Assembly: GCF_006265115.1 (NCBI RefSeq)
Contig: NZ_SMDR01000001.1
Span: 1,302,001-1,366,000, forward strand
DNA length: 64,000 nucleotides
Reading direction: 5' to 3'
Source: Arenimonas terrae
GTDB lineage: Bacteria > Pseudomonadota > Gammaproteobacteria > Xanthomonadales > Xanthomonadaceae
Of the stretch, positions 10,940 through 53,540 are shown one piece after another (positions within the stretch are counted from its first letter, which is position 1; each line of letters begins with the position of its first letter). A program made the translations under genes and the position numbers. The notes under the pieces were generated by a model. The model made no database searches and was not told the DNA's origin. It saw only the letters and a list, made by a program, of their open reading frames with translations.

Positions 10940-11703
10940 GGCGCTGGTTTTACGGCCTGCTGCTTTCGGCCGCGGCCACCGCCGGCGCCAACGAAGGCGT
11001 GGCGGAACTGGAAACGGTGCGCCAGGGCGACGCACTGCTGGCAGTGGCGCGCAGCCGCATGGACGGCCCGGTGGAGGTGACGCTCAGCGCCGTCGGCGCC
11101 GCTCCCGCCAGCGAGCCGGCGCTGCCGGTGCAGCGGGTCCTGGCGCCGCGCGAGCGCGTGGTGCTGGCGCGCCTGGCCGCCGACGGTGGACCGCAGTCGC
11201 TGGTTCTTTCGGCCACGCCCGGGGAGCCGCATGCGGTGCCGCGCGACATGGTCTATTCGCTCCCCGTCGAGGAATCGGATTTCGAGCTGGGCCAGGGATT
11301 CCACGGTGGCTACAGCCACGCCGACGAGGCCAACCGCTACGCGGTGGACCTGATCGTGGCCGAGGGTACGCCGGTGCTCGCCGCACGCCCGGGCGTGGTG
11401 ATGCAGGCGACGTCGGGTTTCAACGAGGGCGGCACGGACCGTTCGCTGGCCGCTCGCGCCAACCTGGTCCGGGTGCTGCACGACGATGGCAGCATGGGGC
11501 TGTATGCGCATCTGCGCGAGGGCGGCGTCACGGTGCAGGCGGGACAGGCGGTGACGCTCGGGCAGGTCATCGGTTACGCCGGCAGCACCGGTTTCTCCAG
11601 TGGTCCGCATCTGCACTTCGCGGTGCAGGTCAACGGCGGCGGGCGTCTTGTCTCGGTCCCCTTCCGCATGATCGGCCCCCACGGCTTCCTGCCCCTGCGC
11701 TGA
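10936..11703 (+). CDS. M23-family metallopeptidase (peptidoglycan endopeptidase-like)
   Basis: This 255-residue exported protein has a short signal sequence (MRRWFYGLLLSAAATAGA), a beta-rich domain to about 105, and an M23/LasA-type peptidase domain about 115-250. Zinc-site candidates are His128 in the unusual stretch SHADEANRYAVD with Asp138, His192 in YAHL, and the His225-Leu-His227 pair in GPHLHFAV. This H-x9-D layout is seen in one M23 subgroup. The likely activity is cleavage of peptide cross-links in the cell wall or of glycine-rich peptides. ATG 10936 overlaps the TGA of the upstream GGDEF-EAL gene, tying its translation to a cyclic-di-GMP protein. A hairpin follows eight bases after the stop. 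Confidence 0.88.
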   Translation: MRRWFYGLLLSAAATAGANEGVAELETVRQGDALLAVARSRMDGPVEVTLSAVGAAPASEPALPVQRVLAPRERVVLARLAADGGPQSLVLSATPGEPHAVPRDMVYSLPVEESDFELGQGFHGGYSHADEANRYAVDLIVAEGTPVLAARPGVVMQATSGFNEGGTDRSLAARANLVRVLHDDGSMGLYAHLREGGVTVQAGQAVTLGQVIGYAGSTGFSSGPHLHFAVQVNGGGRLVSVPFRMIGPHGFLPLR

Positions 11704-11771
11704 TTGCTGCCCTTGCGCTTTCGCGCAAGTAGGTCAATTGCTCGTGTTCGGTTGATCCGGCGTGCGCCGCC

Positions 11772-11880
11772 GTAGACAGGAGGGGGTCCCTGCCCGCTCA
11801 GTCGGCGCGGCGTCCTGCCCACCGATTCGCGGCCGTTGCGGGCATCCTGCCCTCCACTTCAGGGACCCCCTCCTGTCTAC
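11772..11880. repeat. Perfect 21-bp inverted repeat inside repeat A
   Basis: The left arm 11772-11792 begins GTAGACAGGAGGGGG and the right arm 11860-11880 is its exact reverse complement, 67 bases apart. The interior belongs to the block identical in copy B. In copy B the corresponding arms (53061-53081 and 53149-53169) match at only 17 of 21 positions, so this pairing is less conserved than the second stem. Confidence 0.85.
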
Positions 11881-12064
11881 GTCGTCGCCGCGTAGCAGTG
11901 TCGCGAGCCGTTGGGACAAGCGCGTGCCTCCAGAAGGCACGGACGCTTGCAGGGTGGACGGAACGGGCTTCTAGGCCCATCCTGGCCAGCGAAACAGGAA
12001 GGCAAAACCAGGAGCTTCGCCAAAGCGAGTTTCTCAAACTCGACGCCCGGCCCGGCTGGTCCGC

Positions 12065-12176
12065 AGGCCGCCGTGCGAGGGTCCTTTCCCGGGGTTTCGA
12101 AAACATGGACGTTTTCGAAAAGCCTACAGGGACGTATTCACGGCGTCCCCGGGAAAGGACCCTCGTACGGCGGCCT
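12065..12176 (+). repeat. Long stem-loop of repeat A (30-bp stem)
   Basis: Arm 12065-12094 pairs with 12147-12176 over 30 bp, interrupted only by one G-T wobble (12075 with 12166). The 52-base apical part contains the nested hairpin TTTCGAAAAC / GTTTTCGAAA (12095-12104 with 12111-12120, loop ATGGAC). Copy B has the same stem with paired base changes, which indicates that the fold itself is what is maintained. On the plus strand the wobble is G-U; on the minus strand it would be an A-C mismatch, so a plus-strand RNA fits better. Confidence 0.8.
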
Positions 12177-12314
12177 ATCGCCTAGAACGACCCCGGCGCC
12201 GCGACCTCACATACGGCGGCCTGTCGCCTCGAACGACCCCGGCTCGAGCAGCCGGCACCGGAACAAGAACGCCGCGAGCCAGAAGGCCCGCAGCGTCCGG
12301 CCAAGCGCGAGGGA

Positions 12315-14645
12315 TCAGAACGAATAGCGCGCGATCAGCTGGCAGACCGGGCCGGCGGATTCGGTCTCGAGCTCGTACTCGTCGTAGTCGCGGTCGAACT
12401 GGTCGAAGGCGTTGTCGAACTTGTGGAAGGCCTCGTCCTTGTCGGCGTCGAGCAGGTTCGAGCCGGTCAGGCGCACCGACAGGTTCTCGCCGAAGCGCTT
12501 TTCGATGAAGACCTCGAGGTCGGCGCCGTAGCTGGTCCGGACTTCTTCGGCCAGCACCCGCAGCTCGGCATCGCCCTGCTTGCGGTAGCTGGCGCCGAAG
12601 GACGCGCCCCACGACGGCAGGTCCTGGATGAAACCGACGTTGTAGACGTAGCGCGCCTGGTTGTTGAAGCGGCGTTCGCCGAACTCGTCGTCCACCGAAC
12701 TGTCGAGCCAGGAGTAGTTCACGAACACGCCGGTGTTGGGCAGACCGAGCGCGGTCAGCGGCGTCGAGGCGTCGAACTCGACGCCATAGACCTTGCCGTC
12801 GCCGACGTTGGCGGCGGTGTAGACGAAGCTCTGCGGATCGAATTCCGGATAGCCCGGCGTGTTCTCGTCGGCACCCGGGTTCTCGTCCAGGAATTCCTCG
12901 ACCTCTTCCTCGTAGTCGCCGATCGCCGTCGCGCTGGGCGCGCCGGTGTTCACCACTTCGATCAGGTCGGTGACATCGCGGTAGAACAGGTTCACGCCAA
13001 CGATGCCCTGGCGGCCGAGGCGGCGCTCGAAGCCCAGGTCGATGCCCCAGGCGGTTTCCGGGTCGAGCTGCGGGTTGCCGGCGAAGTCGCTGTCGCCGTA
13101 CTCCTCCTCCAGGGTCAGCGGCAGGATGAAGTCGAAGTTCGGGCGACGCACGGTGCGGCCCAGCGACAGGTTCAGGCGGTCGTCTTCGGTGAGGTTCCAG
13201 CGCAGGCTGGCCGAGGGCAGCAGCACGGCGTAGTCGTTGGACTCGCCGTCGCCGTCGGCATCCACGTCCACGTCGGTGGACTCGTAGCGCAGGCCTGCCT
13301 GCCATTCCAGCACCTGGCCGGCGCCGGAGAGCATCAGGTAGGGATCGATGCGGCGCTCGTCGATGGTGCTGGTGTTGCGGTCGAAGTCGGCATAGGGCGG
13401 CAACGGGTCGCCTTCGACGTCGTTGTCCACTTCGCTCACCTGGCGGGCGGTGTCGCGGGCCTTGTCCAGGTAATCCAGGCCGAACTCCAGTTCGGTGGCG
13501 GTGAACTGGCGCTTGTGGGCTAGCTTGAGGCTCAGCTCCGTGTCGTCGGTGTCGGTGAGGATGCGCGCGCCCTCGGTCTCGTCGAAGCTGGGCGGCGTGT
13601 CATCGTCGTCGTAGCTGGTCTCTTCCTCGGTGTCGAAGGTCTCGTCCTCGAAGCCGGCGTAGCCGAGGTCGATCTCGCTGCGGCCGCCGGCCATGTCGAA
13701 TTCGTAGCCCAGGCCAAAGGTCAGGTTGGTCTGGTCGATGTCGACGATCTGGCGGTTGACCGACAGCAGGTTGTCGCGGCTGGTGCTGGTCGGGTCGTTG
13801 TATTCGATCGAGTCCTCGGTCTGGGTACGGTCGGTCAGCACATACAGGCCGGTGAGCTTGAGCTCGCCGGTGCCGATCGGCCGGCTGTAGGAGACGTTGG
13901 CGGAGTAGTCGTCGCCGTCGCGCACGTCGGTCTGGTCCTCGCGGTCGACGAAATCGCCGCCCGGCTCTTCGAAACGCGTGCTGAACTTGCGCTTGGGGTT
14001 GTAGCGGCCCTGGACATTGAATCCGCCCAGCAGGCGCCCCCCGCCGACTTCGCCGGCCGCCACCGCGCCGTAGGTCGGCTTCACCTCGCCATCGTCGAAC
14101 CGCAGCGCGCCGGCGCGCACGTAGGCGCCGTCGAACTCGTAGGCGTCGCGCAGGATGATGTTGAGCGCGCCGGCCACGGCGTCGCCGCTGCGGTTGGCGC
14201 TGGGCGCGCGCACGATCTCGATGCGTTCGACCAGCTCGGCCGGGATGCGGTCGACGAAGAAGCTGCGGTCGCCGCCGGCGCCGGGCACCTTCTTGCCGTT
14301 GATCAGGATCTGGGTGTAGCCCGGGTCCAGGCCGCGCAGCTGGGCGCCGTCGTATTCGAGCACGTCGGAAACGAAGGCGACCGAGGGTACGCGCTTGAGC
14401 ATGTCGCCGACGGTGAGCGGCTCGAAGCGCTGGAAATACTCCAGGTCGTAGGACAAGGTCGGCGCGATGTCATCGGCGCGGTCGCGGTAGCTGATCTCGC
14501 CCTGCACGACGATGGTGTCCAGCTCCTTGACCGCACCGTCCGGCGCGGCCGGCGCGGGGTCCTGGGCGAAGGCACCGCCGGCGGCGACCACGAGTGCACC
14601 GGCCAGCGCGCGCGACAGGCTGGAGGCGAGTAGATTCTTTTTCAT
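12315..14645 (-). CDS. TonB-dependent outer-membrane receptor
   Basis: This 776-residue outer-membrane receptor has a signal peptide (ALVVAAGGAFA), a TonB-box-like ELDTIVVQG at about 40, a plug domain about 55-165 (LTVGDMLKRVPSV, GYTQILINGKKVPG, VERIEIVRAPSANRSGDAV) and a 22-strand-type barrel ending in the aromatic residue Phe (IARYSF). Loops are strikingly acidic, including a run of Asp near 345. ATG 14645 is preceded by GGGGAAG. It is divergent from a beta-propeller phytase-like lipoprotein, a pairing described in Xanthomonas-like bacteria in which the receptor is thought to take up phytate or its products. The substrate here is inferred only from that neighbour. The acidic loops could instead suit a cationic ligand or metal complex. 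Confidence 0.92.
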   Translation of the reverse strand: MKKNLLASSLSRALAGALVVAAGGAFAQDPAPAAPDGAVKELDTIVVQGEISYRDRADDIAPTLSYDLEYFQRFEPLTVGDMLKRVPSVAFVSDVLEYDGAQLRGLDPGYTQILINGKKVPGAGGDRSFFVDRIPAELVERIEIVRAPSANRSGDAVAGALNIILRDAYEFDGAYVRAGALRFDDGEVKPTYGAVAAGEVGGGRLLGGFNVQGRYNPKRKFSTRFEEPGGDFVDREDQTDVRDGDDYSANVSYSRPIGTGELKLTGLYVLTDRTQTEDSIEYNDPTSTSRDNLLSVNRQIVDIDQTNLTFGLGYEFDMAGGRSEIDLGYAGFEDETFDTEEETSYDDDDTPPSFDETEGARILTDTDDTELSLKLAHKRQFTATELEFGLDYLDKARDTARQVSEVDNDVEGDPLPPYADFDRNTSTIDERRIDPYLMLSGAGQVLEWQAGLRYESTDVDVDADGDGESNDYAVLLPSASLRWNLTEDDRLNLSLGRTVRRPNFDFILPLTLEEEYGDSDFAGNPQLDPETAWGIDLGFERRLGRQGIVGVNLFYRDVTDLIEVVNTGAPSATAIGDYEEEVEEFLDENPGADENTPGYPEFDPQSFVYTAANVGDGKVYGVEFDASTPLTALGLPNTGVFVNYSWLDSSVDDEFGERRFNNQARYVYNVGFIQDLPSWGASFGASYRKQGDAELRVLAEEVRTSYGADLEVFIEKRFGENLSVRLTGSNLLDADKDEAFHKFDNAFDQFDRDYDEYELETESAGPVCQLIARYSF

Positions 14646-21109: not shown

Positions 21110-21163
21110 CTTCTTGCGGTGAAAGCGGCCGTCGTGCGCCCCCGCGGCGCGGGGAGCGATACG

Positions 21164-21278
21164 ACCCATCTCTCGGCGGACTGGCGTCCCCGCAGGAATT
21201 GGCACCTTCATGCGGAATTGCTTCCGCATGGGTTGCCCCGGCGTCTTCGGGCCTACCCCTCAGCCGGTCTCGATGGGT
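21164..21278 (-). ncRNA. SAM-I (S-box) riboswitch upstream of metX-metB-hom
   Basis: Reading the minus strand, helix P1 is ACCCATC (21278-21272) closing with GATGGGT (21170-21164). Between them are the S-box hallmarks in order: GGCTGAGGGG, GGCCCGAAGACGCC-type P2/P3 junction, GGGGCAACC, and the P4 region AAGGTGCCAATTCCTGCGGG, followed by the GAGAGATGGG 3' side of P1. SAM-I aptamers bind S-adenosylmethionine and repress methionine genes. This 324-base gene-free stretch (21076-21399) therefore holds the aptamer, the expression platform, and on the far side the short promoter region of the divergent lipoprotein gene. Confidence 0.9.
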
Positions 21279-21399
21279 GTTGCGGGAGGGAGCTTGAACC
21301 CGCCGGCGGGGACCTGTCAATCCCTTCATGCGGATGAAGAGATGGGATACGACCGCCCCACCCGTGGCGGGAGCCGCCCGGCCTGCGCATACTTCCGTC

Positions 21400-52996: not shown

Positions 52997-53540
52997 CTTG
53001 GCCCTTTTTGGGGCCAAGCAGGTCCCTTGCTCGTGGTCGGTTGATCTGGCGTGCGCCGCCGCAGACAAGAGGGGGTCCCTGCCCGCTCAGTCGGCGCGGC
53101 GTCCTGCCCACCGATTCGCGGCCGTTGCGGGCATCCTGCCCTCCACTTCAGGCACCCCCTCCGGTCTACGGCGTCGCCACGAAACGGTGTCGCGAGCCGT
53201 TGGGAAAAGCGCGTGCCCCCAGAAGGCACGAAAGCTCGCTGCTTGGATGGAAATGGCTTCGGAGCAGACCCGGACGAGCCGCAGCTCGAAGGCAGAGACG
53301 CCGAACGCTTTGCACAAGCGAGCTTCACGGATTCGATAACCCGGCCCGGCTGGTCCGCAGGCCGTCGTGCGTGAGGTCTCTTCCCGGGGCTTCGAAAACA
53401 GGGACGTTTTCGAAGAGCCTCCAGGGATGGATTCACGGCGTCCCCGGGAAGAGACCTCACGTACGGCGGACTATCGCCAGGATCGATCCCGGCACCAAGA
53501 CCCTCACGTACGGCGGACAATCGCCGAGAACGATCCCAGC
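52997..53540 (+). repeat. Structured dispersed intergenic repeat, copy B
   Basis: This is the second copy of the element at 11712-12243, in the same strand orientation, lying between the divergent IIA and mgtE genes. The opening hairpin is CTTGGCCC/GGGCCAAG (52997-53018). The identical 84-base block is 53069-53152. The long stem pairs 53359-53389 with 53442-53472 over 31 bp, with two wobbles and one mismatch, and encloses CTTCGAAAAC / GTTTTCGAAG (53390-53415). The closing units at 53454-53493 and 53500-53540 repeat with a spacing of 47 bp. The middle part (53170-53358) diverges more. Gene-like readings through it are not convincing. The rest of the 644-base gap (53541-53607) holds the mgtE promoter. 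Confidence 0.85.
53359..53472 (+). repeat. Long stem-loop of repeat B (31-bp stem)
   Basis: Relative to copy A this stem shows four base-pair swaps and one added base pair in the region next to the apical loop, each matched in the opposite arm, plus a T-A to C-G swap at the base of the nested hairpin. The G-T wobble at 53369/53462 matches the wobble of copy A. Confidence 0.8.

Follow-up and report, generated by a model that had tools for sequence, protein, structure and literature searches.

Dispersed palindromes of Gammaproteobacteria with two conserved GGA hairpin loops: a maintained plus-strand fold and a candidate CsrA-binding module

The two long palindromes of the window (the whole 64,000-nucleotide stretch of Arenimonas terrae DNA that was analysed) belong to H2, a large family of short dispersed DNA palindromes in many Gammaproteobacteria. 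The plus-strand fold of these elements is almost certainly maintained, and the explanation towards which we lean overall is that H2 elements are mobile palindromes that carry a double CsrA-binding module.

Architecture and covariation of the H2 palindromes

Both palindromes are located where the earlier note had placed them, and each of them has a long stem with two apical hairpins, referred to as B and C:

12065-12176, plus strand: H2 palindrome copy 1, with a 30-bp stem (12065-12094/12147-12176) that is 97% complementary and is topped by two apical hairpins
12095-12120, plus strand: apical hairpin B of copy 1, with a 10-bp stem and the hexaloop AUGGAC (12105-12110) closed by a C-G pair
12122-12144, plus strand: apical hairpin C of copy 1, with the hexaloop AGGGAC (12128-12133) closed by a C-G pair
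12166-12243, plus strand: direct-repeat tail, with a 32-bp repeat present twice (12166-12197 and 12212-12243)
53359-53472, plus strand: H2 palindrome copy 2, with a 31-bp stem (53359-53389/53442-53472) that is 90% complementary
53390-53415, plus strand: apical hairpin B of copy 2, with the hexaloop AGGGAC (53400-53405)
53417-53439, plus strand: apical hairpin C of copy 2, with the hexaloop AGGGAU (53423-53428)

Hairpin C of copy 1 is built up of GCC/GGC, a UUCAC bulge and UAC/GUA, followed by the hexaloop, and the first 32-bp tail repeat overlaps with the 3' foot of the copy 1 stem. When compared with 200 dinucleotide shuffles, the folds have z values of -12.1 (copy 1) and -10.8 (copy 2), and in neither case is any shuffle as good. 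The fold of copy 2 agrees with hairpin C. In the minimum-energy fold of copy 1 alone this region is paired otherwise, and the hairpin C pairs of copy 1 are backed by the family-wide pairing in an alignment of 44 copies.

The pair-by-pair comparison of the two copies shows three matched swaps in the long stem (T-A to C-G, C-G to T-A and A-T to T-A) and, in the best register, one A-T pair inserted in copy 2. The earlier note had counted four stem swaps and one extra base pair; the extra pair is confirmed, and the fourth swap (G-C to A-T) is this inserted pair. The T-A to C-G swap at the base of apical hairpin B and the G·T wobble common to both copies are as described there, and a further matched swap, A-T (12126/12135) to C-G (53421/53430), absent from that note, is found in the second apical hairpin. 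The statement that every change is matched and lies in the top half of the stem does not hold, as two changes in the lower part of the stem lack a counterpart in the other arm: C-G is replaced by T·G at 53365/53466, and G-C is replaced by G·A at 53361/53470. The stem of copy 2 contains a T·G, a G·T and a G·A, each once. The compensation pattern of the window copies is strong, not perfect.

The proposal that this pattern goes beyond independent drift is borne out by the many-copy covariation, which is far above shuffled and slid controls. In alignment A1, a plain MAFFT alignment of 44 H2 copies with the structure written by hand, 96.3% of the 1950 cells pair, and changes on both sides are seen in 40 of the 45 pairs. 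The number of doubly changed cells is 473; shuffling gives 132 (SD 10), slid structures give 54-118, and none of 500 shuffles reaches 473. A covariance model was built from these 44 copies, and the alignments A2, A3 and A4 are all fitted to it. In A3, which consists of 43 rows found and aligned by the model in other genomes (one of them being a wrong-strand echo), 94.8% of the 1916 cells pair, again 40 of the 45 pairs change on both sides, and the number of doubly changed cells is 640 (178 when shuffled, 114-157 when slid). Collecting the genomic copies and building a covariance model, the check suggested earlier, thus leaves the reading standing. The pairs adjoining the second loop also covary, being TC/GA in 49, CC/GG in 28, TA/TA in 18 and CC/GA in one of 96 copies.

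Orthologous loci were also compared. Between L003 and L113 (two Arenimonas species, with 88% identity over 3.1 kb) there are four double and no one-sided changes, and between L010 and L141 there are two double and no single changes. The L024/L094 pair has four double and three one-sided changes, the L008/L099 pair has two of each kind, and L012 is out of register with L127 and L124.

Concerning the strand, the G·U pairs of A1 read on the plus strand number 85, compared with nine A·C pairs; two columns that Arenimonas copies have in common by descent account for 34 of the 85, and the remainder is 51 versus nine. In A2 and A3 together the numbers are 86 and 28, a count that is helped by the model's own preference. 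The excess of G·U over A·C indicates that the plus strand is the folded strand. For 24 copies in the arrangement -H-, where the plus strand lies antisense to the genes on either side, the numbers are 42 and 11, and this bias indicates that the fold belongs to the element and not to the transcript of a neighbour. The maintained plus-strand fold proposed earlier is therefore in agreement with both observations, the double changes above controls and the excess of G·U. Such covariation and wobble statistics are alike for RNA and for single-stranded DNA.

It had also been suggested that the arms are copied onto each other by template switching in a quasi-palindrome, in which case the fold would have no function. 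In the upper stem and in hairpin B of A1, double changes far exceed one-sided ones, transversions included, as such templating would give; moreover, the copies of G237, like those of G245, all have different stem sequences with complementarity kept, so that stems vary among copies and are yet almost perfect. Templating is, however, a strand-blind process that predicts equal numbers of G·U and A·C pairs, which does not match the ratios of 85:9 and 86:28, and it leaves unexplained why the GGA loops and the bulge are fixed on a free stem. We therefore regard it as a very improbable sole explanation, and it may add to the speed at which the stem changes. Within G142 and within Arenimonas the stems of the copies are more alike. 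Taken over the family, the long stem is almost free, and the tips are fixed. A pseudoknot between loop and junction was considered and dropped, both sites varying independently (by eye).

Hairpin tips, the H1 palindrome and host csrA

An A(N)GGA(X) loop is found in the first tip of 147 and in the second tip of 156 of the 157 distinct copies (including the 44 training rows, with identical rows counted once and three wrong-strand echoes dropped); such counts are partly selected for, as the tip pattern and the model used in calling favour GGA loops, and also G·U over A·C. Among the 296 six-base loops (139 first and 157 second tips), positions 3-5 are always GGA and position 1 is A in 293, whereas positions 2 and 6 take all four bases. 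In A1, the loop-closing pair is C-G in 43 of 44 first tips and in all 44 second tips. Two central motifs are present in 150 copies, and in 119 of these the spacing from GGA to GGA is 20 nt. The exact 11-mer UACARGGAUGU occurs in 25 of the 157 copies, and the full RUACARGGAUGU in nine.

These properties can be compared with the known target of CsrA/RsmE. The high-affinity target is described in the available text of PMC4005645 as an ANGGAX hexaloop placed directly on a stem, with variable N and X. The consensus obtained by SELEX, according to the available part of PMC7652899, is RUACARGGAUGU, mostly in six-base loops and with pairing of AC and GU; the hairpins mostly have four pairs or fewer, which in that text suggests a disadvantage of very stable hairpins. 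Hairpin B of H2, in comparison, has 10 pairs. The tolerance of the H2 loops, with GGA fixed and positions 2 and 6 free, equals the RsmE tolerance published in these parts of both papers (PMC4005645 and PMC7652899). H2 thus has the feature by which Csr/Rsm RNAs are defined, two or more stem-borne hairpin loops with an A(N)GGA(X) motif.

A second type of palindrome, H1, is located upstream of both window copies, and near copy 1 the end motif of the composite is also visible:

11712-11744, no strand assigned: left end motif of the composite, a CTTGCGC...GCGCAAG hairpin followed by AGGTCA..TGCTCG
11764-11888, minus strand: H1 palindrome upstream of copy 1, with a 29-bp stem that is 93% complementary and minus-strand hairpins AGGAU and AGGAC
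53053-53178, minus strand: H1 palindrome upstream of copy 2

H1 ends about 180 bp upstream of copy 1, and it is built unlike H2, having its own varying stem. It was looked at in 21 of the 30 own-genome loci, being those in which edge motifs were found. On the minus strand of H1, all 21 have a predicted hairpin loop with GGA, and this strand is more stable than the plus strand in 20 of 21. The hairpin sequences are GGGC-AGGAU-GCCC and GGGC-AGGAC-GCC, with GGUC-AUGGAU-GAC in a single copy; in many of the predicted folds the A and U of the loop pair as well, so that a triloop of GGA is left. Seen from the centre of the composite, both H1 and H2 face outward, and on the right side of some own-genome copies the inverted end motif is visible. 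In other loci the partner is an inverted H2, and all 15 of the 15 pairs in G000 and G003 (two Arenimonas genomes) are divergent; in G347 the H2 pairs are convergent. At the same site of orthologous loci there can be H2 alone, H2 with H1 or H2 with an inverted H2. At one orthologous site of two Arenimonas genomes (L010 and L141), H2 is present in opposite orientations.

The genome from which the window is taken encodes a CsrA of 71 residues, and csrA is found in 63 of the 68 H2-bearing genomes. Among the genomes of good quality, csrA is present in 57 of the 58 that bear H2 and in 280 of 314 overall (bearing versus non-bearing, Fisher p = 0.009, a value that ignores phylogeny). The exception is G255 (98% complete), with eight H2 matches and no csrA hit. 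The loop sequence, its pattern of tolerance, the spacing, the second hairpin type and the host csrA together make a CsrA-type protein a fairly likely partner of the H2 tips.

Distribution, mobility and genomic context

A BLAST search with copy 1 against its own genome gives 34 matches, a few of them partial and one being its own opposite strand. The covariance model finds 53 rows in this genome, namely 34 full copies (at least 94 bits), one apex-only piece and 18 wrong-strand echoes. Within the genus, 14 of 27 genomes have matches, with one to 34 copies each, and within the class H2 is found in 68 of 369 genomes and in 61 of 272 genera (E of 1e-4 or better, the E-values of this model being rough). 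In a sample of the phylum, 27 of 398 genomes are positive, all of them of the same class, the share of the 398 from outside the class not being given. Genome G308 has 146 matches (150 candidates scored). A search with the exact tip pattern gives 54 stretches, from Arenimonas, a Microbulbifer MAG, Marinobacter and one Rhizobium MAG contig. The latter contig (L129, 3.2 kb) carries an H2 of the Arenimonas type and is possibly a binning error. In three Marinobacter loci (L102, L121 and L126) there are extra hairpin-like stretches before the second apical hairpin, around CATGGATG/CAGGGACG and GCAGGAGC. No H2 match is found in plasmid, phage, E. coli genome and IMG/VR records with the queries used, and a phage, plasmid or E. 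coli origin was ruled out on this absence.

Mobility is most clearly visible in G308, where H2 is inside units, most often of 165 bp, with the ends CAGCAATTCCCA.TTTG; 318 of these end motifs are found with up to two mismatches. The flanking 9-mers agree in at least eight positions in 23 of 33 units, compared with four of 1056 mismatched pairs; these are 9-bp target-site duplications. A second unit type in this genome, with the ends TATACCC...GGGTATA, carries the same tips. Twenty further G308 stretches (L277-L296) were chosen away from the H2 matches, and 16 of them are units with both ends. In 14 of these 16 larger MITEs, one strand or both have GGA in a predicted hairpin loop; the other two (L278 and L282) have such a loop on neither strand. 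The MITEs of this one family differ from each other by extra hairpins with the loops AAGGAU, AUGGAU and AGGA, nested or in tandem, on either strand. An autonomous parent of the G308 MITE was also looked for: in eight longer stretches there is no transposase between the ends, as judged by eye from gene calls, and this candidate was set aside.

The combination of inverted ends, target duplication, many copies and lack of a transposase gene, by which MITEs are recognized, is found for G308 only; in the genome of the window, where end motifs are visible, H2 is a candidate MITE. Mobility of H2 is thus shown in one lineage and is likely elsewhere, and it is probable that H2 is carried by MITEs in general. 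The two Y1_Tnp loci of the window's own genome have neither the end motif nor H1, and they contain two loose tip matches without GGA; one of the loci has another inverted repeat. A Y1 transposase gene flanked by the same repeat, as in REP/RAYT systems, is not found for H2, and mobilisation by RAYT/REP was rejected, as no shared repeat is found at the two Y1 loci. In L145 (1111-1990) there is a Y1 transposase gene with a different inverted repeat on its flanks, which contains CTCTGACCCCGGATTT.

The neighbouring genes were called with a simple in-house scorer, and 134 copies remain after omission of 15 copies with a missing neighbour (two wrong-strand echo rows were dropped from the analysis of the class copies). 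Of 30 copies in the own genome none overlaps with a predicted gene; three of 19 in A. daejeonensis (L094, L127 and L128) do, and none in the other groups; the A. daejeonensis overlaps are probably due to over-long gene predictions, and a protein-coding reading was rejected on these grounds. The arrangements of the 134 copies are +H+ in 45, -H- in 51, +H- in 32 and -H+ in six. H2 avoids promoters, sits after genes and is indifferent to gene orientation. In the 51 -H- copies there is no plus-sense reading from a neighbour.

It is conceivable that the palindromes are REP-like hairpins at the 3' ends of genes, whichever way these point, and that they block exonucleases or terminate transcription; the tips would then be an ancestral leftover. 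The low number of copies between divergent genes (six of 134) is in agreement with this, as is the distance of at most 60 nt from the neighbour's predicted stop codon in nine of 17 +H+ and 16 of 24 -H- copies of the class sample. In the -H- copies, however, the minus strand is the transcribed one, and in plus-strand terms A·C would then be expected over G·U, contrary to the 42:11 counted in favour of G·U. Fixed ANGGAX loops are not required for such a hairpin either, and neither window stem is followed by a T-run. This explanation is given little credence. A 3'UTR element acting in cis on its neighbour is weakened as a candidate by the unbiased orientation and by the G·U bias in the antisense copies.

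The indifference to orientation is the greatest obstacle to a simple RNA acting in cis, and it is also what most favours a different explanation, in which it is single-stranded DNA that folds, with tips recognised by a transposase, a recombinase or some other protein involved in moving or maintaining the element. Hairpin ends are recognised in this way in IS200/IS605 and REP systems. This explanation is also favoured by the persistence of the G·U bias in copies antisense to both neighbours, by the mobility in G308 and by the inverted pairs, 15 of 15 being divergent in the two Arenimonas genomes. On contig C1 of the own genome, furthermore, the single copies lean to one strand, 12 of 14 being plus between 0.82 and 1.76 Mb and both copies near 0.15 Mb being minus, where the sampled GC skew is weak; inspection by eye of G003 and G308 shows no clear strand rule. 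An orientation set by the replication strand was considered in view of this lean, and it is at most a possibility. The presence of the same tips in G308 MITEs with unrelated ends is left unexplained by an end-binding transposase. The loop tolerance is that of CsrA targets, the GGA loops of H1 are in a different frame and on the other strand, and the two Y1 transposase loci offer no matching repeat. We consider the single-stranded DNA explanation unlikely, and continue with the reading of the tips as a CsrA-binding module.

Proposed role and comparison with known systems

In the preferred explanation, the plus strand would be the working form, a long stem topped by two hairpins with A-N-G-G-A-X loops that are closed by C-G and are about 20 nt apart. 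Tips of this sequence and geometry are what one would expect if a CsrA/RsmE dimer has a double binding site here, and the long stem would present and protect the tips. Wherever it is transcribed, plus-strand H2 RNA would most likely capture CsrA, either by serving as one of many scattered decoys or through an effect on the transcript in which it is contained. In at least one lineage the elements spread in the form of MITE-like units. The RNA nature of the folded strand, CsrA as the partner and capture as the function are suggested by the sequences. In the scan of 11690-12320 for the sigma-70 consensus no promoter-like site is found, and by eye there is no upstream sequence common to different genera. 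The role as a decoy is put forward as a tentative one. The wider proposal is that CsrA-binding hairpins (H2, H1 and the nested and tandem G308 modules) were gained and retained time and again by MITE families throughout Gammaproteobacteria, which so form a mobile genome-wide decoy; it is more doubtful still.

If these proposals are correct, transposable elements, beside dedicated sRNA genes, would partly set the level of free CsrA or would put their own transcripts under CsrA control. In many bacteria CsrA would then face tens to hundreds of mobile decoys besides a few dedicated sponge RNAs, and the transposon load would be linked to the control of carbon metabolism, motility and biofilm formation. 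The strongly covarying stem would also be a test case for distinguishing selection on a fold from templated repair of palindromes.

Sponge RNA genes typically have their own promoter and are present at one to a few loci. The sponge RNAs CsrB, CsrC, RsmX, RsmY and RsmZ resemble H2 in having A(N)GGA(X) hairpin loops on stems, suited to CsrA/RsmE dimers. H2 is, in contrast, dispersed in tens of copies (34 in the own genome) with no promoter found at the locus, and it has two tips on a long varying stem; the Rfam models of the sponge RNAs have no match in the stretches searched. The TwoAYGGAY RNA (RF01731), like the reverse complement of Bacillaceae-1, has two conserved loops of the AYGGAY type. 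They are proposed to bind CsrA in the available text of PMC4333381 and are in the list of PMC2864571, as far as that text is available. H2 differs from them in being dispersed and MITE-borne and in having U or G at loop position 2 in 280 of the 296 six-base loops, and RF01731 has no match to H2 in small stretches at E of 5 and 10.

ERIC, REP, BIME and REPIN elements are dispersed intergenic palindromes that occur in inverted pairs. H2 is likewise dispersed, intergenic and present in inverted pairs, and it differs by its two ANGGAX loops and by having no matching RAYT locus in its own genome. QMITE2 of Coxiella, an sRNA-yielding MITE, is short and strongly folded, has variable direct repeats of 7-11 nt and is mainly located after genes (PMC5896051, available text). 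According to the same text, the relatives of QMITE2 keep the stem and vary the tip, with a GTAG REP inside, whereas in H2 the tip is constant and the stem is variable; CsrA is not mentioned in that paper. No report of the H2 family was found in searches of the open-licence literature for H2 sequences and for CsrA-binding repeats or MITEs. The CsrA-related sRNAs described for Alcanivorax are two dedicated sRNAs and not repeats (PMC9788540, available part), and RsmU is an RsmA-sequestering RNA of Xanthomonas (PMC7694677, available part).

At the gathering score, none of the 4227 models of Rfam 15 has a match over the element in the window or in the sets of 20 and 12 loci, and no Csr-type family matches at permissive cut-offs in two small stretches. 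Assignment to a known RNA family was rejected on this basis, the sub-threshold matches to microRNA precursors reflecting the long hairpin. Two other matches were observed. The 5' ureB sRNA (RF02514, 95.1 bits) is present on the minus strand of the Marinobacter contig L109 (7242-7528), and the window has a SAM riboswitch (RF00162, 77.3 bits) on the minus strand at 21163-21279.
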